From the NCBI RefSeq assembly GCF_000520955.1, contig NZ_JACC01000038.1:1-64000 (forward strand): DNA of 64,000 nt. Direction: 5' to 3'. Both the position numbers and the translations under genes were made by a program. This DNA is from Aquimarina pacifica. GTDB taxonomy: Bacteria > Bacteroidota > Bacteroidia > Flavobacteriales > Flavobacteriaceae. The notes beneath the pieces are model-generated. The model saw only the letters and a list, made by a program, of their open reading frames with translations, did no database searches and was not told where the DNA came from. Each line of letters starts with the position of its first letter. Position 1 is the first letter of the stretch. Below, piece after piece: positions 25,283-56,706 of this stretch.

Positions 25283-25325
25283 TGACAAATATCATAGTTA
25301 CCAACTATCTACTACCATACTTTTA
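25283..25325 (+). promoter_or_regulatory. CRP/FNR-type box and -7 element, USP-cls operon
   Basis: Box TGACAAATATCA (25283-25294), 23-base spacer, -7 element TACTTTTA (25318-25325), 20 bases before the ATG. One of fourteen promoters with this layout in the window. Confidence 0.8.
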
Positions 25326-25345
25326 TAGTATTAAAATCTTATACT

Positions 25346-26182
25346 ATGAAAAATATTTTATTACCAACCGATTTTTCTGAAAATGCAAAAAATGCCATTG
25401 ATTATGCCTTAAAATTATTTAAAAATGAGCTATGCACATTTTATATTTTACACGTAGAAAAAGCGTCAGCGTATATGACAGATGATTTGATGTCCGCCCC
25501 TTCAAATGCTTCAATTCATCATTCTGTAACTCATGATACGAAAGAAAAACTAAAACTATTAATTGACAAATTAAAGAAGGGAACAAATACTCAAGGATAT
25601 ACTTTTTTTGCACTTACGGATTACGATATGTTCACAGATGCCATTAAGCAAGTTGTAAAATCAAAAAATATTAACCTAATAGTTATGGGTACAAATGGAG
25701 CAACAGGAGCGAAAGAAGTAATTTTTGGAAGCAACACTATTAAAGTGATTCGAAATATAAACTGCCCTATTTTGGCTATTCCGGATGGATATACCTTTAA
25801 GACTCCAGAAAAAATATTGTATACGATAGATTATAATGATCATTTTTCTAAAAACGGTATTGAACCTCTCACAGATATTTTGACAAAGTTCAAAACATCC
25901 CTTAAAATTCTCAAAATCAAAGAAGATGATACGCTAACCGTATCCGAATTTGATGATAAAAAAAATATGAAGGATTTTTTTAAAGACACGCAACATACCT
26001 TTCATTCTATAACAAATGTTCCTACCGTACTGGCTATTGACTGTTTTATGCAAATCATGAATGTTGATATGAATGCAATGTTTATTCATAAAGAAACCTT
26101 TTTAGAGCGTTTCTTTCAGGGCTCAAACACATCAAGAATTAGCTATAAAACCAGAGTTCCGCTTTTAATTCTTAGAAATTAG
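25346..26182 (+). CDS. Universal stress protein, tandem UspA type
   Basis: Double-length universal stress protein, 278 residues. The first half keeps the nucleotide-binding pattern (MGTNGATGAKEVIFGSNTIKVI, read here as G-x2-G-x9-GS). The second half is degenerate: the loop is replaced by HKETFLERFF before VPLLIL. This is the shared lineage signature of seven of the eight USPs here. USPs help survival in starvation or low oxygen; the biochemical role is unclear. Opens with ILLPTDFSENAKNAI. Likely cotranscribed with cardiolipin synthase 25 bases downstream. Confidence 0.92.
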   Translation: MKNILLPTDFSENAKNAIDYALKLFKNELCTFYILHVEKASAYMTDDLMSAPSNASIHHSVTHDTKEKLKLLIDKLKKGTNTQGYTFFALTDYDMFTDAIKQVVKSKNINLIVMGTNGATGAKEVIFGSNTIKVIRNINCPILAIPDGYTFKTPEKILYTIDYNDHFSKNGIEPLTDILTKFKTSLKILKIKEDDTLTVSEFDDKKNMKDFFKDTQHTFHSITNVPTVLAIDCFMQIMNVDMNAMFIHKETFLERFFQGSNTSRISYKTRVPLLILRN

Positions 26183-26207
26183 GATCCCCAACAAATTCTT
26201 TTTGGCA

Positions 26208-27629
26208 ATGATACTCGTTATTCTACTAATCCTATATCTTCTGGTGGGAGCCATACTTATTTTTAAATTAATTATCTATGGTGTCCGTCCAACCAAAACA
26301 TTGGCTTGGCTTCTTGCCATTTTTACTATTCCGGTTGGAGGCATATTATTATATCTTTTATTAGGAAGAAATCGTAGGAAACAAAAACTCTATCATCAAA
26401 AAAAAACCAAAAAAATCAACACCTATTTAAAGGAGGTCGAAAATCATCATTTTAATATTACTAATTTTGAGTATAATGAACATCAAAAACTAATTGAGCT
26501 TATCTCAAAAAATTCTGGCTTTACTCCTTCTTCGGGAAATAAAGTAAACCTTCTTAAGAATGGAGAAACAACTTTTGAGGCAATATTTAACGCGCTAAAA
26601 AAAGCCACCCATTTTATTAATATTCAATACTATATTTTTGAAGAAGGAGAACTTACAGATAGCTTCTTTGCCTTATTCAAAGAAAAAGTTAAGGAAGGGG
26701 TGCAAATACGAATCCTCTATGATGGTATCGGTAGTATTTCATTAAGTAAAGATTATATTAATAAGCTCAAAAAAATAGGTGTTCAGGTCTATAGTTTTTT
26801 GCCTATGAAATTTGGCAAATTTTTATCCTCTATCAATTATCGCAACCATCGTAAAATTATTGTAATTGATACTAACATTGCTTTTACAGGAGGAATCAAT
26901 GTATCAGATAAATATGTGAAGGGCGATCGGCATTTAGGCATTTGGAACGATATGCATCTGCAATTAGAAGGCCCGATTGTAAACAGTCTTCAGGCAGTTT
27001 TTGCAATGGATTGGCACTTTATTACCAATGAAGATCATATCTTTAACTTAGGGCCTTTTCCTGTATTTGAAAAAAAAGGAAAGGCTTCTGCACAGGTTGT
27101 ACAAAGTGGTCCCGATTCAGACTTTTCTGCTATTAGACAATTATTTTTTTCGATGATTACAGATGCCAAAGACTACATTTATATTACCAATCCATACATT
27201 ATTCCTGGGGATTCGATTATAGAATCCTTGCAAGTAGCAGCACTTAGTGGTGTTGATGTGAGAATGTTACTCTCGAATAACTCAGATAACCAAATCGTTA
27301 GATGGTGCGTGCGCTCCTATTTTGAAACATTACTACAGGCTGGCGTAAAAATTTATTTAATTCAGGATGGCTTTTTACATAGCAAAACAATGGTTGCAGA
27401 TGACACTATTTCCTCGTTAGGTACCGCGAATATGGATATTAGAAGTTTTGATCAAAATTATGAGGTCAATGTTGTAATTTTTGACGATAACTTTGCATTA
27501 GATCTTAAAAACAATTTTATCGAAGAATGTAGCAAAAGTATCCAACTTAATTATAGTGATTTTAGTAAAAGACCTTGGCTAGATCGATTAAAGGAAGGAA
27601 TAGCAAAAGTTTTTAGTCCCGTGTTATAA
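26208..27629 (+). CDS. cls: Cardiolipin synthase
   Basis: Membrane enzyme of the phospholipase D superfamily that makes cardiolipin from phosphatidylglycerol. From the ATG at 26208 it has 473 residues; a TTG two codons earlier is less likely. Two N-terminal transmembrane helices are followed by two HKD motifs, NHRKIIVID and LHSKTMVAD, so both catalytic halves are intact. It lies behind a USP gene with a CRP/FNR-type promoter, suggesting membrane remodelling as part of that response. Its end overlaps the convergent dehydrogenase gene by 17 bases. Confidence 0.93.
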   Translation: MILVILLILYLLVGAILIFKLIIYGVRPTKTLAWLLAIFTIPVGGILLYLLLGRNRRKQKLYHQKKTKKINTYLKEVENHHFNITNFEYNEHQKLIELISKNSGFTPSSGNKVNLLKNGETTFEAIFNALKKATHFINIQYYIFEEGELTDSFFALFKEKVKEGVQIRILYDGIGSISLSKDYINKLKKIGVQVYSFLPMKFGKFLSSINYRNHRKIIVIDTNIAFTGGINVSDKYVKGDRHLGIWNDMHLQLEGPIVNSLQAVFAMDWHFITNEDHIFNLGPFPVFEKKGKASAQVVQSGPDSDFSAIRQLFFSMITDAKDYIYITNPYIIPGDSIIESLQVAALSGVDVRMLLSNNSDNQIVRWCVRSYFETLLQAGVKIYLIQDGFLHSKTMVADDTISSLGTANMDIRSFDQNYEVNVVIFDDNFALDLKNNFIEECSKSIQLNYSDFSKRPWLDRLKEGIAKVFSPVL

Positions 27630-30334: not shown

Positions 30335-30778
30335 TTAACGTATCTCAATAACTTTTTTTGGTGGTTCTTGCGCATCTTCTTTTTTGAGAAGATTTAAGGA
30401 CAGAATACCATTGTTATATGTGGCTTTAACCTTTTCATTTTGATTAATACTACCAGGCAATTGCAATTTTCTATCAAATGAATGATAACTAAATTCCCTA
30501 CGTGTATAATTATCATCTTCTTTAACATCTTCTGCACTTGTATTTGCACAAATGTGTAATACATCATCCTCAATAGTTACTTCGATATCTTTTTTTGAAA
30601 ACCCAGGAACTGCAAGTTCTATTTCGAAGTCATTTTTGTTTTCTTTGACATTCATAGCAGGAAGAGAGCTATCTCGCATAAAAAAATCATCTGCAAAAAA
30701 GTCATCTGTATCTAACCATGATGAAACTTTATCGTTAAACCACGGGGATCTGTGTTTGTTAAATTTAATTAGTGACAT
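30335..30778 (-). CDS. Small heat-shock protein Hsp20
   Basis: ATP-independent holdase chaperone of the alpha-crystallin family, 147 residues. The alpha-crystallin domain covers about residues 38-140, with the typical ELAVPGFSKKDIEVTIEDD and the closing YNNGILSLNL before a C-terminal IxI-like VIEIR tail. Its promoter has a CRP/FNR-type box, so it probably responds to the same signal as the USPs rather than only to heat. Confidence 0.94.
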   Translation of the reverse strand: MSLIKFNKHRSPWFNDKVSSWLDTDDFFADDFFMRDSSLPAMNVKENKNDFEIELAVPGFSKKDIEVTIEDDVLHICANTSAEDVKEDDNYTRREFSYHSFDRKLQLPGSINQNEKVKATYNNGILSLNLLKKEDAQEPPKKVIEIR

Positions 30779-30818: not shown

Positions 30819-30861
30819 TAAAATTAGTAAGCGTATTCGTCAGATAAAATGATAATTATCA
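30819..30861 (-). promoter_or_regulatory. CRP/FNR-type box and -7 element, hsp20
   Basis: Perfect palindrome TGATAATTATCA (30850-30861), 23-base spacer, -7 element TAATTTTA (30819-30826, minus strand). The first half-site contains the TGA stop codon of the upstream gene. Confidence 0.85.
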
Positions 30862-31915: not shown

Positions 31916-32767
31916 TTAGTTTCTTAAATCGTGTAATGCGAGTACGGGTACCTTGGCATGATTCCCAAGGTTTTTTACCATAGGCTGAGATAGTATACTC
32001 CCGAAAAAACTGTGCTTCTTGTTTATAAAAGTAATCATGTCACTTTCTCTACTTTCGACAAAGGCATTTAACCCTTCTTTGACCCCTATATTATGTAGGG
32101 TATGAAATGTGTATTGTAAACTATCAAAATATTCTTTTAATAATTTTTTATTCGCCTCCTGTTCTTTGCTCAAAGCATCACCTTCAGAAATATGTAAAAT
32201 TCGTATTGCAGCATTACTTATTCTCGCCAATTCTATCAAATAATGAAGTTCTCTACGTTTTATTCGTGTTTTAAAATCGGTAGGAAAGACTATTTCTTTT
32301 GGTTCTTGATAGGTGATTTCACCAGGAATTGCAAGTACAGGGCAATTTCTCTCTTTTTCCATAACCAAAATAGCATTGCTTCCGTAAATAATACTGCTAG
32401 CATTGGTAGCCCCTTTGGTTCCCATGATGATCATTTCAATATCCATTTTGTCAACAATGTCTTTGATAGCATCAAGAAGATTATTAAACTTTGAGACCGC
32501 AAAGAATTTGTGTTTTGTATTCTCTTCTTTCATAGAAATTCTTTCTAACGTCTTGCTCAATCCTTTTTCTGACACTGCTTTGGCTTTATCAAATATTTTC
32601 TCTCCTGGTTCGGGCACCATCATACTCTCCATTGCATAACCACTTGCCTGAAAAGCGTTCAGCAAATAGAAATCACACACTTCATTCTTATATAATTCTA
32701 TTGCGTAAGAAATGGCGTTCCATGCATTTTTTGAAAAATCTGTGGGTAATAAGATTTTCTTTTTCAT
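31916..32767 (-). CDS. Universal stress protein, tandem UspA type
   Basis: A 283-residue USP. The first half holds the nucleotide loop (MGTKGATNASSIIYGSNAI); the second half lacks it and instead carries KKHSFFGSIL before VPVLAL, as in its six relatives here. It has its own CRP/FNR-type promoter and probably runs into the eRF1-like gene 14 bases on. Confidence 0.92.
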   Translation of the reverse strand: MKKKILLPTDFSKNAWNAISYAIELYKNEVCDFYLLNAFQASGYAMESMMVPEPGEKIFDKAKAVSEKGLSKTLERISMKEENTKHKFFAVSKFNNLLDAIKDIVDKMDIEMIIMGTKGATNASSIIYGSNAILVMEKERNCPVLAIPGEITYQEPKEIVFPTDFKTRIKRRELHYLIELARISNAAIRILHISEGDALSKEQEANKKLLKEYFDSLQYTFHTLHNIGVKEGLNAFVESRESDMITFINKKHSFFGSILSQPMVKNLGNHAKVPVLALHDLRN

Positions 32768-32792: not shown

Positions 32793-32835
32793 CAAATATA
32801 TTGCCCGAAACTCTCAAAAACTATGACAATTATCA
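32793..32835 (-). promoter_or_regulatory. CRP/FNR-type box and -7 element, USP gene
   Basis: On the minus strand: TGATAATTGTCA (32824-32835), 23 bases, then TATATTTG, a perfect TAnnTTTG. The first half-site again holds the TGA stop of the upstream gene. Confidence 0.85.
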
Positions 32836-33681
32836 GGTTGCTGCAGGCACAACTAAAAAAGGTTTTATAGGATGAAACCCTATCCTTTTTATGATAGGTT
32901 CACGGGTAATGCTTTCGATTAGGCTATGTTTATAATTGACCATAATCAACATGTTTATTTCTTGCTGTTCAATAAAATCATTAATTAACCTGGCTTTTTG
33001 AGTAAATTTTGAAATCCAGTGTATGCTATTTGTAAAGTTTTTGAGATACCTCTTAAGAGCATTATAGTTATAGGCTTGTATATCATCGAGCTTTTCTTCT
33101 TCATGAATATGAAAAATTCTAATAGCAGAATCAAACAAGGAAGCTATCTCTAGTAATGATTTTAATTCTTCTTTTTCATAAAAACGTTTCAAATCAGTAG
33201 GAAAGGCAATCTCTATAGGTTTTTCGTAGGTAAACTCGTCTGGCACTATCAATACTGGACAATCTTTTATGCTCTGTAACACTTTTACCGTATTACTGCC
33301 CATAAAAATTTGTTTCGCCTTTGTAGCACCTTTTGTTCCCATAACCACAAGATCAATTTCTTTTTTGACAATGGTTTTGTTGATGGTGGTAATTAAATTT
33401 TTTGAAACAGATATGGTTTCAAAGTTGTGATTATCATCTTCGGTATCTCTAGTGATCGCATGAAATGTTTCTGCCAATCCCTCTTGAGATGCATTACTTA
33501 ATTGTTTATAGATACGATCTCCTTTGCTTGTATCTATCCTACTGGTTAATACTGGTGTTTTTACCTCAAATGTATTGAGTATATAGAATTGACATGACTG
33601 CGCCTTAAGCAATTGAGTTGCATAAAAAAGTGCATTATATGAATTGTTTGAAAAATCTACAGGAATTAATATTCTTTTCAT
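32833..33681 (-). CDS. Universal stress protein, tandem UspA type
   Basis: A 282-residue USP opening with ILIPVDFSNNSYNAL. The N-terminal half keeps the loop MGTKGATKAKQIFMGSNTVKVL; the C-terminal half has the lineage signature YKHSLIESITREPIIKRI instead. Its stop codon lies in the box of the next USP gene, so expression of the two could affect each other. Own CRP/FNR-type promoter. Confidence 0.92.
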   Translation of the reverse strand: MKRILIPVDFSNNSYNALFYATQLLKAQSCQFYILNTFEVKTPVLTSRIDTSKGDRIYKQLSNASQEGLAETFHAITRDTEDDNHNFETISVSKNLITTINKTIVKKEIDLVVMGTKGATKAKQIFMGSNTVKVLQSIKDCPVLIVPDEFTYEKPIEIAFPTDLKRFYEKEELKSLLEIASLFDSAIRIFHIHEEEKLDDIQAYNYNALKRYLKNFTNSIHWISKFTQKARLINDFIEQQEINMLIMVNYKHSLIESITREPIIKRIGFHPIKPFLVVPAAT

Positions 33682-33707: not shown

Positions 33708-33750
33708 TAAAACTATTAACAATAGATATGGGTTTCTATGACATTGCTCA
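33708..33750 (-). promoter_or_regulatory. CRP/FNR-type box and -7 element, USP gene
   Basis: On the minus strand: TGAGCAATGTCA (33739-33750), 23 bases, then TAGTTTTA. The inner bases are the least regular of the set, but half-sites and spacing are exact. Confidence 0.7.
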
Positions 33751-35634: not shown

Positions 35635-36476
35635 CTGTCTAAATTTTGAAGGATTAAAAATGGAATCTTAATATGCAGACCAATCTTATCAATAGTAGAT
35701 TGGTAGAGAACACTTTCTAAATAAGAGTGTCTCGAGTTTACCAAAACCAATACATCAATTGATTGATTCTTTATGTATTCATTAATGGCTAATGTCAAGC
35801 CCTCTGATGAAATAGTTTTGAATTCTAAAGTCATATCAGACAAGCTTTCTTTAAGAAACATCCTATTATCCTCTTGTCTGATCGACAGTTTTTTATACAT
35901 CGAAACATGCATCATTGTAATGGTTGATCTAAAACTTTTTGCCAGTGTACTCAACAATTTTAGCTCTCTTCGTTTATAGGGTAAAAAATAATCTGTTGGA
36001 AACAGTATATGTTTTGGCTTTTCAAACATACATTCTTCAGGAATTGCTAATACTGGGCATTTCACATATTTTAAAACCTGTAATGTATTACTCCCAAATG
36101 TGAGCATACGATCATTTGTTTTACCCTTGGTACCCATGACTACTACATCAATATTTTCTTTATTCACAATATCATTGGTTTCATCTATCAATGTGCCAAA
36201 TACTGCTAACATGTTATAATCATGTCTCGGGTTGGGAGAAATTTGTTTAATCTGATTATTTAATCGTGCTAATTCCTGAGCAACCTTTTTCTGTGTCAAC
36301 TCTTTTACCTCTTCAAAAACTGCTCTTGCGCTATCAGCATTCGCATCGTATACCTCATCAGCATATGCATGTAGGATAAAAAACTCGCACCGTTCATATT
36401 TAAATAGCGCTACGGCATAGCATATTGCATTCATGGCATTTTCTGAAAAATCTGTTGGAATTACTATTCTCCTCAT
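35631..36476 (-). CDS. Universal stress protein, tandem UspA type
   Basis: A 281-residue USP and first gene of a three-USP operon. The first half keeps MGTKGKTNDRMLTFGSNTLQVL; the second has SRHSYLESVLYQSTIDKI. It is divergent from ccoI, and both genes appear to be served by a single CRP/FNR-type box between them. Confidence 0.92.
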   Translation of the reverse strand: MRRIVIPTDFSENAMNAICYAVALFKYERCEFFILHAYADEVYDANADSARAVFEEVKELTQKKVAQELARLNNQIKQISPNPRHDYNMLAVFGTLIDETNDIVNKENIDVVVMGTKGKTNDRMLTFGSNTLQVLKYVKCPVLAIPEECMFEKPKHILFPTDYFLPYKRRELKLLSTLAKSFRSTITMMHVSMYKKLSIRQEDNRMFLKESLSDMTLEFKTISSEGLTLAINEYIKNQSIDVLVLVNSRHSYLESVLYQSTIDKIGLHIKIPFLILQNLDR

Positions 36477-36498: not shown

Positions 36499-36541
36499 CA
36501 AAACTATACAACTCACCTTCTGAAAACTATGATAATTATCA
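36499..36541 (-). promoter_or_regulatory. CRP/FNR-type box and -7 element, three-USP operon
   Basis: Palindrome TGATAATTATCA (36530-36541), 23 bases, then TAGTTTTG on the minus strand, 22 bases before the USP start. The same box also serves ccoI on the other strand. Confidence 0.85.
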
Positions 36542-36572
36542 TATGTTAGGATAGAAAACTTTTTCAGCTTTG
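36530..36572 (+). promoter_or_regulatory. CRP/FNR-type box and -7 element, ccoI
   Basis: The same palindrome read on the plus strand, 23 bases, then CAGCTTTG (36565-36572), 15 bases before the ATG. The -7 element departs from TAnnTTTG only in its first base. Confidence 0.75.
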
Positions 36573-39454: not shown

Positions 39455-39497
39455 TGATAAATATCATATTTTAAGATATTCTTCACGCTTACTTTTG
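39455..39497 (+). promoter_or_regulatory. CRP/FNR-type box and -7 element, cbb3 operon
   Basis: TGATAAATATCA (39455-39466), 23 bases, then TACTTTTG (39490-39497), 17 bases before ccoS. Expected for an oxygen-controlled oxidase. Confidence 0.88.
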
Positions 39498-39514: not shown

Positions 39515-39709
39515 ATGAGTATCATTTATGTATTACTTACCATTAGTATTCTGGTTGCTATATTCTTTTTTATTGCATTCATCCTTTCTGTAAAAAAGGG
39601 ACAATATGACGATGTATATACACCATCAATACGAATACTATTTGATGATGAACTTATAAAAGATAACTCAAAAAAAAATGTACAAAAAACTAAAACCAAA
39701 GATTCATAA
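39515..39709 (+). CDS. ccoS: cbb3 oxidase maturation protein CcoS
   Basis: Small single-helix membrane protein, 64 residues, needed for cofactor insertion into cbb3 oxidase. Helix about residues 4-27, followed by the conserved short KKGQYDD segment and a charged tail. It is first in the oxidase operon, ending 2 bases before ccoN-ccoO. Confidence 0.92.
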   Translation: MSIIYVLLTISILVAIFFFIAFILSVKKGQYDDVYTPSIRILFDDELIKDNSKKNVQKTKTKDS

Positions 39710-46043: not shown

Positions 46044-47420
46044 CTATATTGTCATAGAAAACAATGTAGTTTCTGGTTTATTACGTTGTAATCGCAAATC
46101 AAAAGCCATGCAAATATTTCTAAGAAAAGGTTTCCCTTTTTTAAGAACCTTTATTTGAGAATCACCAATTTCTAATAATTCATCCTGCTCTAATTCTTGA
46201 AGATTCTGCAACACTTCTGGCAACTCTTTAAAATACAAATCACTATCACCCCAATCTGTTTCAAAATCGCACATTAGATTAAGAATATGACGTCTGATTA
46301 TATCATCCTCTTTGGTTAATATATGTCCCCTATATACAGGAATGATTCCTTCATTTACCAAATGCTGGTATTCATCGATTCCTTTTACATTTTGTGCAAA
46401 TCCATACCTACTATCACTGATTGCAGAAACTCCCAATCCAATCATCATTGAGGTTTTAGAAGTTGTATATCCCATAAAATTGCGGTGCATTGTTCTATTC
46501 TGCATTGATTGATATAAAGTATCTGTTTCTAAAGCAAAATGATCCATCCCTATTTCTATATAGCCTACCTCACTTAGCAGCTTTTTACCCATTTCATACT
46601 GTTGCCTTTTTTCTATTGCAGAAGGCAAATCTTTTTCATCAAACCCACGTTGCCCGTTTCCTTTTTTCCAGGGAACATGAGCATAACTATAAAATGCCAA
46701 TCTATCTGGCATCAATGTTTTTGTTTTATGTATCGTGGCCTTAATATCTTCTTTTGTTTGAAAAGGCAATCCGAAAATAATATCATGCCCCACAGAACTA
46801 TACCCTATCTCTCTAGCCATTTCTGTAACTTGCTTTACCTTCTCAAAAGGTTGTATACGATTAATTGCTTTCTGTACCGTTTCATTATAATCCTGTACAC
46901 CAAAACTTACTCTTCTAAAACCTACATCGTATAAAACTTGTAAATGATCTCGAGTGGTATTATTGGGGTGACCTTCGAAACTAAGCTCACAATGTTGTAC
47001 TTTATCTGATTTTCTGAATATTTCATTAACTAAATATGCTAGATTCTCTGAAGTAAAAAAAGTAGGAGTACCGCCTCCCAAATGTAATTCCTTAATTTTT
47101 GGTTTCTGTTCAAATACGTTCAAGTATAATTGCCACTCTTTCAAAATAGCTTGTATATATGGAATTTCTAGTTCATGTCGCTTCGTTATTCGTTTATGAC
47201 ATCCGCAAAACGTGCATAAACTTTCGCAAAACGGTAAATGAATATAGAGACTGATACCCTCTGAAGAATTTGTGGCTAAAAATGATTTTTTTACGGATAG
47301 TTTCCAATCTCTTAATGAAAATGTACTCATATCCCAATATGGTACTGTGGGATAACTTGTATATCTTGGACCTGCAATATTATACTTCGTAATTAAGTTA
47401 TTAATTAGGCTTGAATTCAT
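46044..47420 (-). CDS. hemN: Oxygen-independent coproporphyrinogen III oxidase
   Basis: Radical SAM enzyme that makes protoporphyrinogen without oxygen, supplying heme when oxygen is low. The 458 residues carry the iron-sulfur motif CESLCTFCGC (C65, C69, C72) and LGGGTPTF, and the length fits HemN rather than the shorter HemW. It follows a USP gene by 45 bases with no own box, so it is probably cotranscribed from the box at 48362. HemN is a classic FNR target. Confidence 0.93.
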   Translation of the reverse strand: MNSSLINNLITKYNIAGPRYTSYPTVPYWDMSTFSLRDWKLSVKKSFLATNSSEGISLYIHLPFCESLCTFCGCHKRITKRHELEIPYIQAILKEWQLYLNVFEQKPKIKELHLGGGTPTFFTSENLAYLVNEIFRKSDKVQHCELSFEGHPNNTTRDHLQVLYDVGFRRVSFGVQDYNETVQKAINRIQPFEKVKQVTEMAREIGYSSVGHDIIFGLPFQTKEDIKATIHKTKTLMPDRLAFYSYAHVPWKKGNGQRGFDEKDLPSAIEKRQQYEMGKKLLSEVGYIEIGMDHFALETDTLYQSMQNRTMHRNFMGYTTSKTSMMIGLGVSAISDSRYGFAQNVKGIDEYQHLVNEGIIPVYRGHILTKEDDIIRRHILNLMCDFETDWGDSDLYFKELPEVLQNLQELEQDELLEIGDSQIKVLKKGKPFLRNICMAFDLRLQRNKPETTLFSMTI

Positions 47421-47465: not shown

Positions 47466-48305
47466 CTATTCATGTAATACCAAAAAAGGGATGGTAATGT
47501 GGTAACTTATTTTTTCTATAGTGGGATGAAATAAAATTCGTTGAAAAAAATTGAGGTTTTTTGCAATCATGGTAATTAGACTAATATCTCTACTTTCTAC
47601 AAAACATTGCACAGCTTCTTCGATATTAGGATTGGATAAAAAATGAAAGCTATGTGTTATCTCCTCTCCGAGATAATTATTCAGAAAATCCTTATTCTTT
47701 TTCTGTAGTTTGGTCAACTCTTTTTCACTTTTGGCAATGTGTACAATTCGCAAAGCTCCGCAATTCATCTCCAGAATATTAGTAAGTGTATTTAATACCC
47801 GGCTTTTGTAAAAAATATTATAGTCTGTAGGAAATGCTATTTCTTTTGGTTTGACATATGTTGCTTTTTCAGGTATTACCAAAACAGGACATTTAACTTT
47901 AGTAATCACGTCACCCGTTTTACTACCAATGGTTTTTTCTTTTAAACCCGTGGCTCCTTTGGTCCCCATAACCATAAAATCTATTTTCTTCTCTGCAACT
48001 TGTTTTCTGATTGAATCAACAAAGAATACATACTCATGAACGGTAAAAAATGTATGCTTTGGATTGAGAGGTAATTTTTCACATTTTTTAAGTAAGTTCT
48101 CAAATTTTGCTGCTACACTTTCTTGTTCTTCATCACTAAAAAAAGAACTTGCAGATTGTAGGGATATACCATTGGTCACTCCTTCAAAAGGAGAAATATG
48201 CAATAGGTAAAAATTGCACTGATTTTTTTTAAAAAATGAGATTGCATAGAGAATAGCATTCCAGGAATTCTCTGAGAAATCAGTAGGTAAAAGAATATTT
48301 TTCAT
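47466..48305 (-). CDS. Universal stress protein, tandem UspA type
   Basis: A 279-residue USP. N-terminal half with MGTKGATGLKEKTIGSKTGDVI; the C-terminal half has NLNFFQRILFHPTIEKI in place of the loop, the most divergent form of the shared signature. It probably shares a transcript with hemN and has a perfect box-to--7 promoter. Confidence 0.92.
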   Translation of the reverse strand: MKNILLPTDFSENSWNAILYAISFFKKNQCNFYLLHISPFEGVTNGISLQSASSFFSDEEQESVAAKFENLLKKCEKLPLNPKHTFFTVHEYVFFVDSIRKQVAEKKIDFMVMGTKGATGLKEKTIGSKTGDVITKVKCPVLVIPEKATYVKPKEIAFPTDYNIFYKSRVLNTLTNILEMNCGALRIVHIAKSEKELTKLQKKNKDFLNNYLGEEITHSFHFLSNPNIEEAVQCFVESRDISLITMIAKNLNFFQRILFHPTIEKISYHITIPFLVLHE

Positions 48306-48330: not shown

Positions 48331-48373
48331 CAAATGTATAAGGATTACTAAGGAGAAAATATGATATAAATCA
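48331..48373 (-). promoter_or_regulatory. CRP/FNR-type box and -7 element, USP-hemN operon
   Basis: On the minus strand: TGATTTATATCA (48362-48373), 23 bases, then TACATTTG, 25 bases before the USP start. Confidence 0.85.
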
Positions 48374-48496: not shown

Positions 48497-49552
48497 TTAC
48501 TCAACCAACTCAAGTCCTTTGAGATCTATTATTCTAATATTTCTACCTTCTATCTCGATAAGCCCTTCTTTCTTAAACCCAGAAAGAGTGCGAATGAGAC
48601 TTTCTGTAGCAATCCCTGCAACACTGGCTAGGTCACTACGAGATATTTTTATCCCGTCTTCGATTTTTTTATTTAGTATCGCCGCAAACTGAAGTATCGT
48701 TTGTGCGGTTTTTTTTCGAACAGAACTATAAGCCATTTGCAGTAGTTGTTCTTTTATATCAGAAAGATTATCGGTGAGTAGCTCCATTAACTCTAATGAT
48801 ATAGTATTGCTTTTTTCAAGTATATCTTTTAGATGATTTTTTGATATCCCTGCTAATTCAACTTCTTCTACTGCACTCGCAGATTCTTGATACGGGATAT
48901 TATCTTTAAAAGAAGTAAATCCTAAAAAATCATCGGGTTTATATAATGCCGTAATGAGTTCCTTACCATTTTCATCCATTTTATGGGTTTTTAATACACC
49001 TTTGAGTATTAAAAATATCTTATTAGAGTGGTCTCCCTCTTTATATACAGGTGCTCCTTTTTTATAGGTAACGATTTCCCCATGATCGTCAAAAAAATTT
49101 TTCAATTCATGTAGATTTCTCAACCCATCATTTGATTCTTCGGGTGCACTTCTTTTTTCTGCAATAAGTTTAGAAATGATTGTAGCTTTTGCCAAACGGC
49201 TTTCTATAGCACTAATGAGTTCTTCTTCTTCAAAAGGTTTTGTGAGGTAATCATCTGCCCCGAGATCCATTCCTTTACGGATTTCTTTATGTTCTGTTTT
49301 TGCAGATAGGAATATAAAAGGTATTTGATTTGTTGTACTATTTTGAGATAACGCCTCTAAAACGCCATACCCATCAATTTCGGGCATCATAATATCGCAA
49401 ACAATAATATCAGGAGCTTGCCCTTGCGCATGCTCGATACCTACTTTTCCATTTGGTGCTGTGATTACTTTGTAATCAGATAATTCTAGTAACTCAGCTG
49501 TATTTTCGCGTAAAGCAGTATCATCTTCTATTAAAAGTATGGTTTTGGTCAT
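48497..49552 (-). CDS. Receiver-CRP/FNR fusion regulator
   Basis: A single protein of 351 residues joining a receiver domain (about 1-125, phosphoacceptor D53) to a cyclic-nucleotide-type fold (about 150-260) and a CRP HTH (about 275-350). The cAMP-pocket residues of CRP are changed: the position of E72 is Phe and that of R82 is Glu, so cAMP is unlikely to bind. There is only one Cys, so it is not an iron-sulfur FNR. The recognition helix keeps the Glu-x3-Arg pair (about 316 and 320) that reads TGA..TCA half-sites. The kinase gene overlaps by 4 bases. Likely regulator of the boxes in this window. Confidence 0.9.
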   Translation of the reverse strand: MTKTILLIEDDTALRENTAELLELSDYKVITAPNGKVGIEHAQGQAPDIIVCDIMMPEIDGYGVLEALSQNSTTNQIPFIFLSAKTEHKEIRKGMDLGADDYLTKPFEEEELISAIESRLAKATIISKLIAEKRSAPEESNDGLRNLHELKNFFDDHGEIVTYKKGAPVYKEGDHSNKIFLILKGVLKTHKMDENGKELITALYKPDDFLGFTSFKDNIPYQESASAVEEVELAGISKNHLKDILEKSNTISLELMELLTDNLSDIKEQLLQMAYSSVRKKTAQTILQFAAILNKKIEDGIKISRSDLASVAGIATESLIRTLSGFKKEGLIEIEGRNIRIIDLKGLELVE

Positions 49553-50694
49553 ATCTGATTAGTATTTATTGGTATTTGTACTGTAAATGTGCTTCCTTCA
49601 TTTTCGACACTTGTAAAAGTAATGGTACCTCCCAAATTTTCTAAATGACTTTTTACAATATTAAGTCCAATTCCTGTTCCTTGATCCAACAAAGCATTCT
49701 CTGCCCTAAAATATCGATTAAAAATAAACTTTTGCTCCTTATTAGGAATACCGATTCCTTGATCAATTATCTTAAACAAAAAGAAATTGTCCTTGGTACC
49801 GACCTGCAAATCAATAGTTGTGTTTTCGCCCGAATATTTGATAGCATTGCGTATTAGGTTCGTTAAAGAAAGCTCTAGTATTTTTTCATCAAAATGAATA
49901 GTATAATCATCAATATCCGATGGATATGTTATTTTTTGTCCATCCTTAAGCAACATATTTGCATCATAAACCACTTCATTGATCACTTTGCTCAACGGAA
50001 AAGCGCTAATTTTATAATTAACTTTTCCGGTATCCAGACGTTCTACAGATAAAAAATCAGTAAGAATATTATCTAGATACTTCACTTTATTCTTTATAAT
50101 TTTAAGATGTTTATCTCTTTTATCTTGTTGTTCTGTCTTTGTATATTTTCCTATTAATGTTGTTGATGTAAGAATTCCGCTAAGAGGTGTTTTAAATTCG
50201 TGAGAAACTAATGATAAAAACTTTGTTTTCAGCTCATTGAGTTCTTTTTCTTTTGCCAGTGCCTTTTTTAATCTTCCGGTTCGTTCTTCTACAGTTTTTT
50301 CTAATTTCTCAGTATAATATTTCCTATCGGTAATATCCATTACTAATGCCATAATAAAAGTCTTACCATAAATTTGAAAAGGACTTAAACCCGCCTCTAC
50401 TGGAAACGTTTTTTTACACTTACGAACACCATAAATTTCCCTTCCTCTCCCCATTTGACGTTTTTCAGAACTCTTTAAAAAGTTTTTAAAATGTCCTTCA
50501 TGACCGCCCCTGTACTCTTGAGGAATAAGGATATTAAGAGGTTGTCCTTTTAACTCTGTTTTTTCATATCCAAACATCTCATCTGCAGCACTATTTGTTG
50601 CGACAATAGTTTGTTGTTCATCTACAATAATTACACCTTCAGAAATGGCTTCTGAGAGAATGTCAAACGTATTTTCATTGGACTGAAGCATCAA
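49549..50694 (-). CDS. PAS histidine kinase, FixL-like
   Basis: Cytoplasmic sensor kinase of 381 residues with no obvious membrane segment: PAS domain (about 8-120), short coiled coil, then HisKA with SHEFKTP (H165) and HATPase (DQGIGIPN, GTGIGLNIV). In the PAS domain H65 (RGGHEGH) and R85 (GRGR) lie 20 residues apart, the same as the heme ligand H200 and distal R220 of Bradyrhizobium FixL, and the whole segment aligns. Heme-based oxygen sensing is inferred. It is cotranscribed with the receiver-CRP regulator. Confidence 0.9.
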   Translation of the reverse strand: MMLQSNENTFDILSEAISEGVIIVDEQQTIVATNSAADEMFGYEKTELKGQPLNILIPQEYRGGHEGHFKNFLKSSEKRQMGRGREIYGVRKCKKTFPVEAGLSPFQIYGKTFIMALVMDITDRKYYTEKLEKTVEERTGRLKKALAKEKELNELKTKFLSLVSHEFKTPLSGILTSTTLIGKYTKTEQQDKRDKHLKIIKNKVKYLDNILTDFLSVERLDTGKVNYKISAFPLSKVINEVVYDANMLLKDGQKITYPSDIDDYTIHFDEKILELSLTNLIRNAIKYSGENTTIDLQVGTKDNFFLFKIIDQGIGIPNKEQKFIFNRYFRAENALLDQGTGIGLNIVKSHLENLGGTITFTSVENEGSTFTVQIPINTNQI

Positions 50695-50907
50695 TTCGTT
50701 TTTGCTTATTTATGTACTGTGGTTGGTTTTGGTTGTCAATCGAGTAGGTTTTCTAAGTAAAAACTACATCCACAAAAATAACCTAAAATTAATAAAATAC
50801 GGATGTGTGTAATTTATTATTAGGAGCTGTTTTGAATAGTTTAACCAAAATTAAGAGTAAAACAAGATGATTTACTTTGACAAAAAACAATTAGAATTAT
50901 CGAGTAC

Positions 50908-50950
50908 TGATAATTGTCATAAAAATCTACATGCACAGGGTTTATTTTTA
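50908..50950 (+). promoter_or_regulatory. CRP/FNR-type box and -7 element, TerB-like gene
   Basis: TGATAATTGTCA (50908-50919), 23 bases, then TATTTTTA (50943-50950), 19 bases before the ATG at 50970. This supports that start and rules out an overlapping frame from 50867. Confidence 0.82.
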
Positions 50951-50969: not shown

Positions 50970-51380
50970 ATGAATACACATCAAAATCTAGGAATTACAT
51001 TTTACCAACATCTAGGAAAATTATTTTATGCGATTGCCGCAGCAGATAAAGTTGTCCGTTCGTCAGAACGTCAATCACTACAAGAATTTGTTCAATCTGT
51101 ATGGGTAACATTAGAAGATCAAGAAGATGAATTCGGTGATGATACTGCATATCAAATTGAAATTGTTTTTGATTGGTTGGATCACGAAGAACCAAGTACA
51201 GAATCATGTTTTAAAGAGTTTGAATCCTACTATATAAAGCATCCCTCATTTTTTTCCAAAAACATAAAACAACTTATTTGGGACACTGCCAACGCAATAG
51301 CAGATGCTTTTGCTGGTAAAAACAAATCAGAATTAACAATGCTTGGCAAGTTACATATCCTTTTTAATAGGGATCAGTAA
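50970..51380 (+). CDS. TerB-like protein
   Basis: A 136-residue helical protein with the TerB-like pattern IAAADKVVRSSERQSLQEFV, where the acidic residues bind metal in the family. TerB-type proteins are linked to stress and tellurite resistance, but this is a distant form. It is placed in the CRP/FNR-box set by its promoter. Monocistronic. Function in this setting unknown. Confidence 0.7.
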   Translation: MNTHQNLGITFYQHLGKLFYAIAAADKVVRSSERQSLQEFVQSVWVTLEDQEDEFGDDTAYQIEIVFDWLDHEEPSTESCFKEFESYYIKHPSFFSKNIKQLIWDTANAIADAFAGKNKSELTMLGKLHILFNRDQ

Positions 51381-51463: not shown

Positions 51464-51506
51464 TGATTTTTATCATAGTTTACGATTATATACTCCTCTA
51501 ATTTTA
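51464..51506 (+). promoter_or_regulatory. CRP/FNR-type box and -7 element, small membrane gene
   Basis: TGATTTTTATCA (51464-51475), 23 bases, then TAATTTTA (51499-51506), 24 bases before the ATG. Confidence 0.82.
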
Positions 51507-51530: not shown

Positions 51531-51815
51531 ATGACACTTTATACAAAAATGACTGCAGATTTTTCAGAAAACTATATAGGAAACTCGGCTCTGGCTATTA
51601 TTCTTTCTACTTGTCTAGGGTCTGTAGCTATTATGACTACATTATCTCATGGAAATAGTTTTTTACAGATGTTCATGGTCTTCATTACAGTTGTACTATG
51701 TAGTGCTCATAATGCTGCAATTCTCACTGTGCAAAAACCGAAACTAGTTTTTGACCTCTTAATGATAAGCTTGATTGCCAATAGCTTAATCATTGTGGGC
51801 AATAGTCTATTTTAA
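51531..51815 (+). CDS. Small unknown membrane protein
   Basis: A 94-residue protein with about three hydrophobic helices (for example SALAIILSTCLGSVAIM and FMVFITVVLCSAHNAAIL). I do not recognise a family. Its position behind a full CRP/FNR-type promoter and before a clean terminator shows that it is a real, singly transcribed gene, probably made at low oxygen. Confidence 0.75.
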   Translation: MTLYTKMTADFSENYIGNSALAIILSTCLGSVAIMTTLSHGNSFLQMFMVFITVVLCSAHNAAILTVQKPKLVFDLLMISLIANSLIIVGNSLF

Positions 51816-51928: not shown

Positions 51929-51971
51929 TGATCAATGTCATACTTTTTATGAACCAACAAAATTACATTTA
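51929..51971 (+). promoter_or_regulatory. CRP/FNR-type box and -7 element, lipoprotein gene
   Basis: TGATCAATGTCA (51929-51940), 23 bases, then TACATTTA (51964-51971). Because the -7 element lies after the ATG at 51949, it fixes the true start at 51991. Confidence 0.78.
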
Positions 51972-51990
51972 TAGAAAATTAAAAAGTACT

Positions 51991-52881
51991 ATGAAAACTC
52001 TTCTCTATATTATTTTGCCATTGTTTTTATACAATTGTAAAAACCAACCTTTACAAGAAAACACTCCCAATCAAACTAATGAATCTAGTACCATACAATC
52101 AAACAAGTCAATCATCGATACTATAGCCTTATTAGATGAAGAACCCATAGAATTTACCAAAGAGAAAATCAACCCCTTAAAAAAACAGAAATTAATCAAA
52201 TTATCTGATGATAAAGAACAACTCTCTACTCTAGTCATTGAAGAGAAACTATATAAAAAAAATGACTTCTACATACTAGATTATAAATACCCCCGTCTAA
52301 ATGAAGGTCTTGATACTGACTATGCAAGCTTTAATACTTTTTTTACCGAAAACTACCTTAACATAGAGGTTACGGAAAATGAAATTCTCGATGACAAATT
52401 TATATATTGTGATAGTGCAGGAGTTAGTAGATGTATGGATAAAAGAATTATTGATTATAAAATTTATGCTGCAAACGAACGATTAATTAGCGTACTGTTA
52501 TATAAAGAAAACTACTATTCTGGGATGAAACATTCTACCTATATGTTCGAATGCCTAAACTATGACCTTACTGATTATAATTTTAAGTATTTTGGAGATT
52601 TTTTTATCAATAACGCTGAAAAAAAAGTATTCAATATCATCAATAAAATTATAACAGCGCAAATCTATTCTGGAGAACTTTATATGGACTGTTGGGAAAT
52701 AGCTGAGGAAGATTTTCGAGTTTATAAAAATAATTTTGTGATCAACGATACTAACCTAGAATATTACTTCGACGATTGTATTATTTGTCCATCATATACA
52801 GGAACATACTCTATTTCAATTCCGATTACCGATGTAATGCATCTACTCAAAAAATATAATGCCCCTCAAAAACTACTATAG
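51991..52881 (+). CDS. Lipoprotein with DUF3298/RsiV-like C-terminal domain
   Basis: A 296-residue lipoprotein from the ATG at 51991 (MKTLLYI), with lipobox LFLYNC. An upstream ATG at 51949 would lie before the predicted -7 element and add 14 residues ahead of the signal peptide, so it is rejected. The C-terminal part (NLEYYFDDCIICPSYTGT and later ISIPITDV) resembles DUF3298, found in RsiV-type proteins. No sigma-factor partner is nearby. Role at the envelope under low oxygen is inferred from its promoter. Confidence 0.7.
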   Translation: MKTLLYIILPLFLYNCKNQPLQENTPNQTNESSTIQSNKSIIDTIALLDEEPIEFTKEKINPLKKQKLIKLSDDKEQLSTLVIEEKLYKKNDFYILDYKYPRLNEGLDTDYASFNTFFTENYLNIEVTENEILDDKFIYCDSAGVSRCMDKRIIDYKIYAANERLISVLLYKENYYSGMKHSTYMFECLNYDLTDYNFKYFGDFFINNAEKKVFNIINKIITAQIYSGELYMDCWEIAEEDFRVYKNNFVINDTNLEYYFDDCIICPSYTGTYSISIPITDVMHLLKKYNAPQKLL

Positions 52882-53564: not shown

Positions 53565-53591
53565 AAAAATCAACTTATAAATGTTAACCAA

Positions 53592-53628: not shown

Positions 53629-53653
53629 TTGGTTGATGAATTATATGATACTA

Positions 53654-54490
53654 TCAAATTTTCAAAGTAATCACGGGTATGTTGGTATGGTTTATTATAT
53701 CCTCCCCTATACTACCATTGAAGAAGTGGGATAAGCCCTTACGACCATGCGTTGGTATAATGATCATATCAGCATTTATTTTTTTACTATAACTAAAAAT
53801 TCCGCTTTCTACAGAGTAATCATTTTGAATAATTACATCGTTATACCTATCAAGATTACCTGCATCTGCTCTAAAAAGAAACTCTTTGATTGTCTCCTCT
53901 ATTTGATCCGAACTCCTAAAATTTTCTGCTGGAAGATTAACATACAATAAGTGTATATTAGGATTAAATAATTCGAGTAATTGAAGAGCCTTATGATAAG
54001 GTTTAAGATTCTCTATCTTAAAATCGCAAGCAAACACAACTTCTTTTATCCTAAATTCTTTCATCGGTTTCTTAATCACCAATACTGGCACTTCTGCAGT
54101 ACGTACTACCTTTTCTGTATTAGATCCAACAAAAACTTCACTTAACCCACTACTGCCATGCGAACCCATAACAATAAGATCTGCTTTCTTCTCTTTTGCT
54201 ACTTCATTGATCTCACTAAATATTTTATAATTTTGTACAGCTTTTGTTACTCTAATACCTGTTAGATAATCTTTATCCAGAAAAGTAGTAAATCTTTTTT
54301 CTGCTAATTTGATATAATAAATGGCTTCTGCCGCTTCCTGAGCTTCATCTTTAGTAAGAATCGCTTCAGATAAACCAAGCATATGTAATACAATAATTTC
54401 TGAATTCATTTGCTTGGCAATTATGGCTGCCACTTTTAACGCATATTCAGAATGTAATGAAAAGTCGATGGGTACAAGAATTTTTTTCAT
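53654..54490 (-). CDS. Universal stress protein with two intact nucleotide loops
   Basis: A 278-residue double USP unlike the other seven: both halves keep the ATP-type loop (MGSHGSSGLSEVFVGSNTEKVV and PTHGRKGLSHFFNGSIGEDI). It lacks the HSxxE signature of the others and seems to belong to a more widespread USP type. It still has the same CRP/FNR-type promoter. Confidence 0.93.
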   Translation of the reverse strand: MKKILVPIDFSLHSEYALKVAAIIAKQMNSEIIVLHMLGLSEAILTKDEAQEAAEAIYYIKLAEKRFTTFLDKDYLTGIRVTKAVQNYKIFSEINEVAKEKKADLIVMGSHGSSGLSEVFVGSNTEKVVRTAEVPVLVIKKPMKEFRIKEVVFACDFKIENLKPYHKALQLLELFNPNIHLLYVNLPAENFRSSDQIEETIKEFLFRADAGNLDRYNDVIIQNDYSVESGIFSYSKKINADMIIIPTHGRKGLSHFFNGSIGEDIINHTNIPVITLKI

Positions 54491-54508
54491 AGTAGATATA
54501 TTTTAAAA

Positions 54509-54551
54509 CAAAAGTATATGACTAGTTGCTTGAAAAATATGACCAAAATCA
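54509..54551 (-). promoter_or_regulatory. CRP/FNR-type box and -7 element, USP gene
   Basis: On the minus strand: TGATTTTGGTCA (54540-54551), 23 bases, then TACTTTTG, 18 bases before the start codon. Confidence 0.82.
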
Positions 54552-54595
54552 GGAAATTAGATATTTAGTAAACTAGTACATACGCGTTATTAGTA

Positions 54596-55096
54596 TTATA
54601 AAAATGCGCCATGTTCATTCATTTTGACACGAATAGTTTTATCACCATTTTCTAACTTTAACTTGTATGTTTTAGCCGCCCCTGCCTGATCATTATAATT
54701 AACAATATAAATATTCTTAGAAATTGCCCACCCCGGAAATCTTTTCACTATTGCCGCATAAATCGCTGCAGGTAGATTGCCTCCTTTGTACCTTTCGGCC
54801 GTCCTAATAACATTACCTTCTTTATCATATGCAGCCAGAATTTTTCCCTCCGGAATAAAAAATGTTACATGATATAAGTCATAATCATCTTGATAAAAAT
54901 CGGCTTCTTTTAGATTAAAAGTTGCTACTTGTCGCTTTATTAACTCCAAAGGGACCGATACTTCTTCAGAATCCACTTCACTAAGATATTTATAGTTTAT
55001 TGCAGAAATAAACACTTCTGATAATTGTTCTGTTTTCTGTGTAAACAAAGAAGAGGTTAACCCCAGAATAAGTATGCAAATTAGTACGTTTCTCAT
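54596..55096 (-). CDS. PepSY-like exported protein
   Basis: A predicted secreted or periplasmic protein of 166 residues from the ATG at 55096, with signal peptide MRNVLICILILGLTSSLF. A TTG at 55117 is rejected since it would lie at the transcription start. The C-terminal PepSY-like repeat contains AAIYAAIVKRFPGWAISK and a second strand pattern. Such proteins in Bacteroidota are of unknown function, perhaps binding peptides or inhibitors. Its promoter has a CRP/FNR-type box. Confidence 0.75.
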   Translation of the reverse strand: MRNVLICILILGLTSSLFTQKTEQLSEVFISAINYKYLSEVDSEEVSVPLELIKRQVATFNLKEADFYQDDYDLYHVTFFIPEGKILAAYDKEGNVIRTAERYKGGNLPAAIYAAIVKRFPGWAISKNIYIVNYNDQAGAAKTYKLKLENGDKTIRVKMNEHGAFL

Positions 55097-55122
55097 GATA
55101 TAATTTTTAAATTTCAATACAT

Positions 55123-55165
55123 TAAAAATATATCATCCATCATTCGCATAAAATGACAATAGTCA
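55123..55165 (-). promoter_or_regulatory. CRP/FNR-type box and -7 element, PepSY-like gene
   Basis: On the minus strand: TGACTATTGTCA (55154-55165), 23 bases, then TATTTTTA (55123-55130), 26 bases before the ATG at 55096. Confidence 0.8.
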
Positions 55166-55293
55166 TCTCTTAACCCAAAATTACCTTTTGATTATAGAAG
55201 AAGTGTACTTTAATAAGATATGATAAAACCTAATGATAACTAACTACTTAAGAATGAAAAAAACTACACTAAATCCTTATTACAGCATTCATA

Positions 55294-56388
55294 TTAGTCA
55301 AAGTTAATGCTACAAAGTTTAACGGTTTCTGATTTTCCGCGAAGTATTAATTTTCCAATTTCAGTATACTGAAATGTGGCGTCCTTTGATAATTTAAGAA
55401 TGAGTTCCTCAGAAATTAAAACATTGGTGTTATACTCATTACATTTCGCCTGAATCCTTGCTGCGGTATTCAAAACATCTCCGGTATAAATAATATCTCT
55501 TTTGATAATTCCGATTTCACCTGTGGTAACTTCACCAATATGATAACCTGCCTTAAAATCAGGAACCAAACCATATTTATGCAGATAATCATTTTCCTTG
55601 ACATTAAAATTATCTCTAATTTTCTTAAAACAATGAATACAGTTATTTTTATACAACCCCGTTTTCTCTTTCCATGATATTACTATTTCATCACCCACAT
55701 ATTGATATATCTCCCCTTCAGTCTCTAAAATAGCATCAGTCATATCTTCATAATATTGCTTAATCAATTCAAAATAAATTTCATGACCAATCTTCTCGGC
55801 AATAGTAGTAGAAGATTTCATATCCAAGAACATAAATATTCTTATTTCTTTTATTGGCTTATGATACTTGCCAAATAAGAAGTTATATAAAATTTCGACC
55901 CCCAAATACTCCGAAATTTCTGAAAAAAACAAGGCTATATTTAAAGAGACACCAATATAAATTACGATACTCCAAAAAGAAAAAGAAGTAAAGAATTTCT
56001 TCGAAATATCAATAATTACAGGATCAAAAATAGGTACATCTAGAATTAGTGAATTTGCTAGTACAGAGATGGTCAGCAGAAAAAGAATAATCAACATCAA
56101 ATAATAGCTGCTTTTTAAAACAACTTTAACCCAAAGAGGATTACGCTTAAACAGCTTTTTAAACCAAACCTGTTCAATCCACCCTTGAATTAACCCCATC
56201 AAAAAACTCCCCGAACATACGTAAATCAAAGACACTTTAAAATTATACACATTGCCTGTATTGGGATAATAACTGGAATCTCCTAAAATCCCAAATTCTA
56301 AAAAAGTATATACAAGTGCCGAAATCAACCATATAATTCCGAACGGAATAACTTGCTTTAGGGTGCGTTTAAGTTTTACTTGTACCAT
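55294..56388 (-). CDS. Membrane class III adenylate/guanylate cyclase
   Basis: A 364-residue cyclase with about four N-terminal membrane helices and a cytoplasmic class III domain. Metal-binding aspartates are D189 (FLDMKSST) and D233 (YVGDEI); the substrate and transition-state region is IYTGDVLNTAARIQ. It could make cAMP, but the nearby receiver-CRP regulator has lost its cAMP-contact residues, so it probably serves another target. No box faces it; the box at 56664 points the other way. Confidence 0.9.
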   Translation of the reverse strand: MVQVKLKRTLKQVIPFGIIWLISALVYTFLEFGILGDSSYYPNTGNVYNFKVSLIYVCSGSFLMGLIQGWIEQVWFKKLFKRNPLWVKVVLKSSYYLMLIILFLLTISVLANSLILDVPIFDPVIIDISKKFFTSFSFWSIVIYIGVSLNIALFFSEISEYLGVEILYNFLFGKYHKPIKEIRIFMFLDMKSSTTIAEKIGHEIYFELIKQYYEDMTDAILETEGEIYQYVGDEIVISWKEKTGLYKNNCIHCFKKIRDNFNVKENDYLHKYGLVPDFKAGYHIGEVTTGEIGIIKRDIIYTGDVLNTAARIQAKCNEYNTNVLISEELILKLSKDATFQYTEIGKLILRGKSETVKLCSINFD

Positions 56389-56663
56389 TTAATCATAAAG
56401 ATATAATAGTTTTCTTAAACGAGAGAAATTATACTCCTATGCACAACGTTCTCTTTTATTGATAAATTATAACAATCTCCTATAGTTCTTCTTACCTTTC
56501 TTCATTATTCATTTCTTAAAAAGCTTTTAAAAAAGTTTGAAAACACTCTCTATTTTTAACAAATAGATGTATTCTGTATCTACTATGATTCTAAGTGATT
56601 TTGTTACCTGTTTTTGTTTTTATGTCAGTCCAAAAAAAACAGTTTCTATTTTATTTCTAAAAC
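56389..56663. other. Non-coding divergent region
   Basis: Between the cyclase and the metal-chaperone gene. Apart from the box and -7 element at 56664-56706, nothing was recognised. It should contain the cyclase promoter, and the sequence is T-rich. Confidence 0.45.
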
Positions 56664-56706
56664 TGATTTAAATCATAGTTCCTATACCATTCTTTACATA
56701 CTTTTA
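56664..56706 (+). promoter_or_regulatory. CRP/FNR-type box and -7 element, metal-chaperone gene
   Basis: Perfect palindrome TGATTTAAATCA (56664-56675), 23 bases, then TACTTTTA (56699-56706), 20 bases before the ATG. Confidence 0.85.

Follow-up and report, generated by a model that had tools for sequence, protein, structure and literature searches.

A 31-kb island within the 64,000-nt stretch of the Aquimarina pacifica genome analysed here (contig NZ_JACC01000038.1; hereafter the window) carries fourteen predicted promoters that share a palindromic TGA-N6-TCA box, placed 23 nt before a TAnnTTTR element. The island is probably a hypoxia regulon of the class II CRP/FNR kind, whose boxes would be read by a receiver-CRP protein under the control of a FixL-like PAS histidine kinase encoded next to it. 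The cis architecture is rigid and conserved among related loci, and both the regulators and the cbb3 oxidase co-occur with it.

TGA…TCA is the site motif of CRP and FNR in Escherichia coli. On both strands of the window, the composite pattern TGAN6TCA-N23-TANNTTTR occurs exactly 13 times, compared with a mean of 0.05 and a maximum of 2 in 100 dinucleotide shuffles, none of which reaches 13; the estimate of about 0.1 chance occurrences per 64 kb in the initial annotation agrees with this control. All 14 boxes listed in that annotation were located, the fourteenth, at 36530 on the forward strand, having one mismatch (CAGCTTTG). When up to one mismatch is allowed, 16 sites are found versus 2.8 expected, and the two extra sites, 54870 (+) and 57754 (+), lie inside open reading frames (ORFs) and are absent from the earlier list of 14. 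The box alone, TGAN6TCA, is not clearly enriched (29 versus 23.4 expected, with 13 of 100 shuffles reaching 29) and was rejected as evidence in itself, so that the signal rests on the combination of box and −7 element. As the annotation had also claimed, T directly follows the box at all 14 sites. Its further statement that the start codon lies 15–40 nt after the −7 element holds throughout once two ORF starts are shifted to internal ATGs (51949 to 51991 and 55117 to 55096), and fails with the longest-ORF starts at 51949 and 55117, which overlap or crowd the promoter. The predicted promoters are as follows.

25283–25325, forward strand: predicted promoter of the universal stress protein (USP) gene at 25346, probably also of the PLD-domain gene at 26202 (exact match; USP by Pfam).
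30819–30861, reverse strand: predicted promoter of the Hsp20 gene 30335–30778 (exact match; Hsp20 by Pfam).
32793–32835, reverse strand: predicted promoter of the USP-like gene 31916–32767 (exact match; USP label by eye).
33708–33750, reverse strand: predicted promoter of the USP-like gene 32833–33681 (exact match; USP label by eye).
36499–36541, reverse strand: predicted promoter of the USP-like gene or genes starting at 36476 (exact match; USP label by eye).
36530–36572, forward strand: predicted promoter of the ccoI-type P-ATPase gene 36588–38975, with CAGCTTTG as its −7 element (one mismatch; ATPase by Pfam).
39455–39497, forward strand: predicted promoter of the cbb3 oxidase operon (exact match; COX1 and FixO domains).
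48331–48373, reverse strand: predicted promoter of the USP-like gene 47466–48305, probably also of the hemN-like gene 46044–47420 (exact match; names by eye).
50908–50950, forward strand: predicted promoter of the gene 50970–51380 (no Pfam match), divergent from the kinase operon (exact match).
51464–51506, forward strand: predicted promoter of the gene for a small hydrophobic protein, 51531–51815 (no Pfam match; exact match to the pattern).
51929–51971, forward strand: predicted promoter of a gene that matches DUF3298 weakly, under the curated cut-off, and probably starts at 51991 (exact match).
54509–54551, reverse strand: predicted promoter of the USP gene 53654–54490 (exact match; USP by Pfam).
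55123–55165, reverse strand: predicted promoter of the gene 54596–55096, function unassigned (exact match).
56664–56706, forward strand: predicted promoter of the HMA-domain (metal chaperone-like) gene 56727–56996 (exact match; HMA by Pfam).

The forward promoter at 36530–36572 and the reverse promoter at 36499–36541 have one palindromic box in common. In the cbb3 operon, a ccoS-like ORF at 39515 is followed by a ccoNO fusion (39712–41904) and then by ccoP-, ccoG- and ccoH-like ORFs, the ccoS, ccoP, ccoG and ccoH names having been assigned by eye. The earlier view that the set covers the cbb3 operon, ccoI, hsp20, USP and unknown genes and defines a regulon is supported, with class II geometry and a tie to the receiver-CRP protein that comes from the comparisons below.

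TAnnTTTG is centred near −7 in Bacteroides, according to part of one study (PMC7366714). Taking this placement for the element here, the centre of the box would fall at about −40 to −41.5. Among E. coli FNR-activated promoters with a known start, 19 of 23 have their site at −41.5 ± 4, as given in part of one report (PMC3688515). The fixed 23 nt and the −7 placement therefore fit class II activation on a flavobacterial promoter.

Several lines of evidence bear on the regulon and its reader. First, the composite pattern has 21 occurrences in the genome of the window (5.26 Mb), of which 13 fall in the 31-kb island, and its reversed form, as a control, has 5 in the whole genome; the pattern is thus not equally common before unrelated genes genome-wide, the outcome that the initial annotation had named as telling against a regulon. 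A stricter pattern, TGAYN4RTCAT-N22-TANNTTTR (strict boxes below), has 15 exact sites in the genome, 12 of which lie in the window; beyond the window the looser pattern has 8 exact sites, and three of these fit the stricter one (C6 twice, C22 once). The boxes C6:144012(-) and C6:146435(+) are possible further members of the regulon. They flank a TonB-type receptor-like gene and stand before genes for small secreted proteins, as judged by eye. With up to one mismatch, the stricter pattern gives 30 sites in the genome and its reversed control 25, which restricts any claim to the exact sites.

Second, the layout recurs around relatives of the receiver-CRP gene. A scan with the receiver-CRP protein matched at least 587 stretches; 529 of the matches listed encode a relative. 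The comparison used the best 80 of these loci (1.6 Mb from Aquimarina, Mesonia, Altibacter, Arenibacter, Dokdonia, Maribacter and others, whose membership of the Flavobacteriaceae was taken from their names). Spacing 23 accounts for 460 sites, present in all 80 loci, whereas each of the other 30 spacings between 10 and 40 nt yields 0–25 sites, 26 of them fewer than 10; the next commonest are 24 (25 sites), 25 (14), 12 (11) and 15 (10), and the reversed pattern at 23 occurs 3 times. The midpoints of 443 of the 460 sites fall outside ORFs of at least 100 amino acids, even though 85% of the sequence lies within such ORFs. A start codon lies within 150 nt in 436 of 446 distinct sites, and in 360 it comes 10–29 nt after the −7 element. 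The logo, approximately AAACTGAYAWWTRTCATaTTTT, is polar: T follows the downstream half-site in 97%, and the upstream half-site is preceded by C in 62% and by A in 30%. Boxes active in both directions at 23/23 are uncommon (17 of 452).

The genes that follow these 460 sites resemble the USPs of the window (196 sites in 78 loci), the gene 50970–51380 (62), the gene starting at 51991 (28), ccoS (23), the gene for the small protein at 51531 (23) and Hsp20 (10), with others fewer; 82 sites precede genes unlike any window protein and 9 have no ORF after them. Among the genes unlike window proteins, the largest group (25) encodes what we take to be ribosome hibernation factors. Because USP-like genes are the commonest downstream genes, the repeated promoters might be copies left by USP gene duplication, with no selected binding site. 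We consider this highly improbable, as the 23-nt spacer shows little sequence conservation past its first seven positions, and the same box stands before the unrelated genes for ccoS, Hsp20, HMA and unknown proteins.

Third, the island encodes a candidate regulator and a candidate sensor.

48497–49552, reverse strand: proposed regulator with a receiver, a cNMP-binding fold and a Crp-type helix-turn-helix (HTH) (Pfam).
49549–50694, reverse strand: proposed sensor, a PAS histidine kinase (Pfam; PDB match; alignment).

In the alignment of 81 receiver-CRP sequences, the phospho-acceptor Asp53 and residues Glu317 and Arg321 are present in every row, and the recognition helix GIATESLIR is nearly invariant. 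The island thus combines a TGA-N6-TCA dyad at its promoters with a CRP/FNR-type helix (Glu…Arg) encoded alongside, as expected of class II CRP/FNR activation. Cys52 of the receiver is the sole conserved cysteine; none is conserved outside the receiver, which argues against an FNR-type cluster in this protein. In cAMP-CRP, an Arg-Ser pair of the cNMP fold binds phosphate. Glu223 of receiver-CRP, present in all 81 rows, is placed opposite CRP Arg82 by an alignment made by eye. Consistent with a two-component system, the receiver-CRP gene has this conserved phospho-acceptor, and a related kinase ORF adjoins it on the same strand in 79 of 80 loci.

The kinase PAS domain has the heme PAS domain of FixL as its best PDB match (E 1.9e-16). 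DosP, yddU, a heme PAS sensor protein and a multi-sensor kinase are the other hits that rank above two weak matches to blue-light receptors. Aligned to FixL positions, His65 is found in all 80 kinase rows and Arg85 in 76 of 80; we take these to be the candidate axial histidine and the distal arginine of a FixL-type heme PAS. Together, these comparisons suggest that the kinase binds heme. It could instead answer redox state or another cue within a real regulon, with no heme-sensed oxygen involved. Gln80 and Ala101 of the kinase, at distal-pocket positions, stand opposite Ile and Leu in FixL, in line with such a cue, whereas the PDB matches ranking above the blue-light receptors, the candidate axial histidine in 80 of 80 rows and the cbb3 oxidase among the targets point to oxygen. 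A different cue is a tangible possibility, on balance the less probable one.

In the proposed mechanism, the FixL-like PAS histidine kinase (49549–50694, reverse strand) would sense oxygen and phosphorylate the receiver of receiver-CRP (48497–49552, reverse strand), thereby activating it. The active dimer would bind TGAYNNNNRTCA, centred about 40–41.5 bp before the start site, and would serve as the reader in its own genome. Bound there, it would act as a class II activator of TAnnTTTR promoters, contacting RNA polymerase beside sigma region 4 and the alpha subunit. Its targets would be the cbb3 oxidase operon, the copper ATPase of the oxidase, USPs, Hsp20 and small unknown proteins.

Fourth, boxes, regulators and oxidase co-occur across genomes. 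We scored 199 genomes of the family for receiver-CRP (E ≤1e-50), stand-alone FNR (E ≤1e-45), ccoNO (E ≤1e-100) and strict boxes; because the candidates scored in each genome were limited in number, an absence may in some cases be a miss. The stand-alone FNR proteins are assumed to carry an Fe–S cluster, the cysteines being known for six members (L107, L111, L113, L114, L119 and L120), all of which have five cysteines in their first ~60 residues. Strict boxes occur in 165 of the 199 genomes. With kinship and genome size ignored, their median number is 12.5 (minimum 4) in the 38 genomes with receiver-CRP only, 8 (two zeros) in the 69 with stand-alone FNR only, 21.5 (minimum 5) in the 48 with both regulators and 0 (32 zeros) in the 44 with neither, and reversed-pattern controls average 0.18–0.29 per regulator group. 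Genomes with and without receiver-CRP differ in strict boxes at p = 1e-21, again ignoring kinship. ccoNO is distributed likewise: 34 of 38 genomes with receiver-CRP only, 63 of 69 with FNR only and 48 of 48 with both (145 of the 155 with a regulator), compared with 2 of 44 with neither. Within the same genus, the genome G315 lacks strict boxes and, at the thresholds used, any match to receiver-CRP, FNR or ccoNO.

In some genomes with both regulators, about 1 kb separates the gene for receiver-CRP from that for stand-alone FNR: G294 C4, G206 C1, G299 C1, G255 C31 and G275 C35, and further in G216 C1, G265 C1, G312 C7 and G318 C60.

Stand-alone FNR proteins seem to use the same layout too, as a shared code. 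In 20 FNR-only stretches, chosen for an FNR gene close to ccoNO, spacing 23 yields 21 sites with all 20 stretches represented. Of these sites, 20 stand before ccoS, and no other spacing yields more than 1. The exact layout also lies 5′ of ccoNO in 93 of 100 further stretches: 32 of 33 with receiver-CRP only, 42 of 47 with both and 19 of 20 with FNR only. These stretches represent 33 of the 34 receiver-CRP-only genomes with ccoNO (the genome of the window, G000, being omitted), 47 of the 48 with both and a further 20 of the 63 with FNR only; among the both-regulator stretches, one ended at a contig edge and three had a box with no exact −7 element at 23. The recognition helices are nearly alike, GTATESAIR in stand-alone FNR and GIATESLIR in receiver-CRP. 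A layout private to receiver-CRP was therefore rejected, the same layout being present in FNR-only genomes.

A one-base discriminator before TGA, C for receiver-CRP and A for FNR, was likewise rejected. In a first sample of ccoS promoters, the base was C in 23 of 23 receiver-CRP loci and A in 20 of 20 FNR-only stretches, where one other site had C. The wider test gave 21 C, 9 A and 2 T with receiver-CRP only (n = 32), 10 C and 32 A with both (n = 42) and 13 A, 5 C and 1 T with FNR only (n = 19; p = 0.009 for C versus receiver-CRP only), reducing the rule to a tendency at most, confounded by kinship.

Several observations weigh against the assignment of the island to receiver-CRP and an oxygen-sensing kinase. 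Many of the 80 records are close kin, so the counts from them are not independent. The layout in FNR-only genomes means that the layout alone does not identify receiver-CRP as the reader. Two genomes lacking both regulators have many strict boxes (26 in G193, 82% complete; 13 in G288, 73% complete), and two FNR-only genomes have none. In an order-level sample of 148 genomes, the looser pattern occurs in 136 and receiver-CRP (E ≤1e-30) in 19, and some genomes without receiver-CRP exceed their reversed control (for example G143, 27 versus 7), so the layout extends more widely than this regulator. For the sensor, PAS domains that are not known to bind heme can likewise have His and Arg at such positions. 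The genome of the window itself has 12 cNMP-binding domains (Pfam) and four Crp-type HTH domains over the cut-off, including that of receiver-CRP; besides receiver-CRP, three of these proteins were examined.

Together with the FNR-only genomes, these further Crp-type HTH proteins (C1, C10 and C12 over the cut-off and a weaker one, C53) raise the alternative that another CRP/FNR protein of the genome reads the boxes and receiver-CRP is merely nearby. C1 has the same Glu…Arg pair in its recognition helix, as judged by eye, whereas C10 and C12 lack the glutamate by the same inspection. Proteins like C1 (E ≤1e-30) are found in only 35 of the 199 genomes versus the 165 with strict boxes, and C1 was rejected as a general reader. 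The genome of the window has no match to stand-alone FNR at E 1e-45, and boxes surround receiver-CRP in 80 of 80 loci, though these loci were selected by its gene. From these counts and the three proteins examined, we regard a different reader as unlikely. A tree of 30 CRP units groups receiver-CRP with the stand-alone FNRs, apart from C1, C10 and C12 of the genome; partial support (<95) and a long-branch warning leave its branching order unsure.

Fifth, the promoter of the regulators' own operon departs from the common register. The region within 500 nt 5′ of a conserved kinase motif was searched for a TGAN6TCA box in 80 rows, comprising the window and 79 loci. A box is present in 70 of them, and 55 of these boxes have the spacing of 23 towards the opposite direction. 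Relatives of the gene 50970–51380 have a box before them in 60 of the 80 related loci. A kinase-facing TAnnTTTR lies 5–40 nt from the shared box in 57 of the 70 rows and never at 23; the spacings are 24 (22 rows), 25 (13), 12 (6), 20 (5), 11 (3), 19 (2) and 26 (2), with single others. On the kinase-facing side, G follows TCA in 45 of the 55 boxes. The shared box lies near 8.4–8.8 kb in the related loci and within 50694–50950 in the window, where no kinase-facing TAnnTTTR was found at 5–40 nt from it. The off-register arrangement suggests autorepression of the kinase/receiver-CRP operon, or at least the absence of class II activation.

A wider reading is quite possible, if somewhat doubtful as a whole. 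The box, T, 23 nt and TAnnTTTR would form a shared output of the Flavobacteriaceae for two oxygen inputs, the FixL-like kinase with receiver-CRP and the stand-alone FNR, with lineages keeping one, the other or both and their regulons being additive. The register would then set the sign: 23 would activate, and the off-register promoter of the kinase operon (mostly 24–25, also 11–12 and 18–21 nt) would be repressed, giving negative feedback.

Rhizobial FixL–FixJ–FixK controls fixNOQP and fixGHIS. The island resembles that system in having a FixL-like PAS kinase, a CRP/FNR-type activator and the cbb3 oxidase with its ATPase as targets, and differs in that the receiver and the CRP/FNR unit are in one protein, as if FixJ and FixK were fused, in its many USP targets and in its phylum. 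Mycobacterial DosRST combines a heme-type kinase with USP and small heat-shock protein targets, as here; DosR, unlike receiver-CRP, is a LuxR-type regulator with another DNA site. With the stand-alone, presumably Fe–S-containing FNR of other family genomes, the system has in common the box, the spacing and nearly the same recognition helix, whereas receiver-CRP lacks the FNR cysteines and has a receiver domain instead.

The class II promoters of E. coli FNR and CRP likewise have a palindromic site centred at about −41.5 beside the core promoter (part of PMC3688515); unlike them, the core here is the Bacteroidota TAnnTTTR and the distance from box to −7 element is 23 nt with few exceptions, whereas E. 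coli FNR sites range over several nt. Control of cbb3 by FixLJ and Fnr is mentioned in part of PMC11841059, which also describes Myxococcus NmpRSTU, a two-component oxygen-utilisation regulon that likewise includes cbb3, a P-type ATPase and hemN. It differs in that its regulator is NtrC-like and its heme kinase is of the protoglobin type. For bins of Flavobacteriales, part of PMC8510549 predicts carbon sensing by CRP/FNR homologues, and the layout is not described in that part. Among the open-licence papers listed in literature searches, subscription journals being outside their scope, no title or abstract opening names the motif or a flavobacterial receiver-CRP, which is weak evidence of novelty, and little was found there on oxygen control of respiration in Bacteroidota. 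If the proposal is correct, a simple rule would predict hypoxia genes across many genera from sequence alone, the class II activation geometry would also hold at the unusual promoter of Bacteroidota, and it would seem that the sensing module can be exchanged at a constant promoter layout.

Among other features of the window, ccoN and ccoO are fused in a single protein with COX1 and FixO domains. The island also encodes a protein (55294–56388) that has a class III nucleotide cyclase domain, with no box directly 5′ of its gene. Outside the island, at 18497–24871, lie genes that, from their sequence, we presume to resemble those for the maturation of lanthipeptide or thiopeptide-type bacteriocins.

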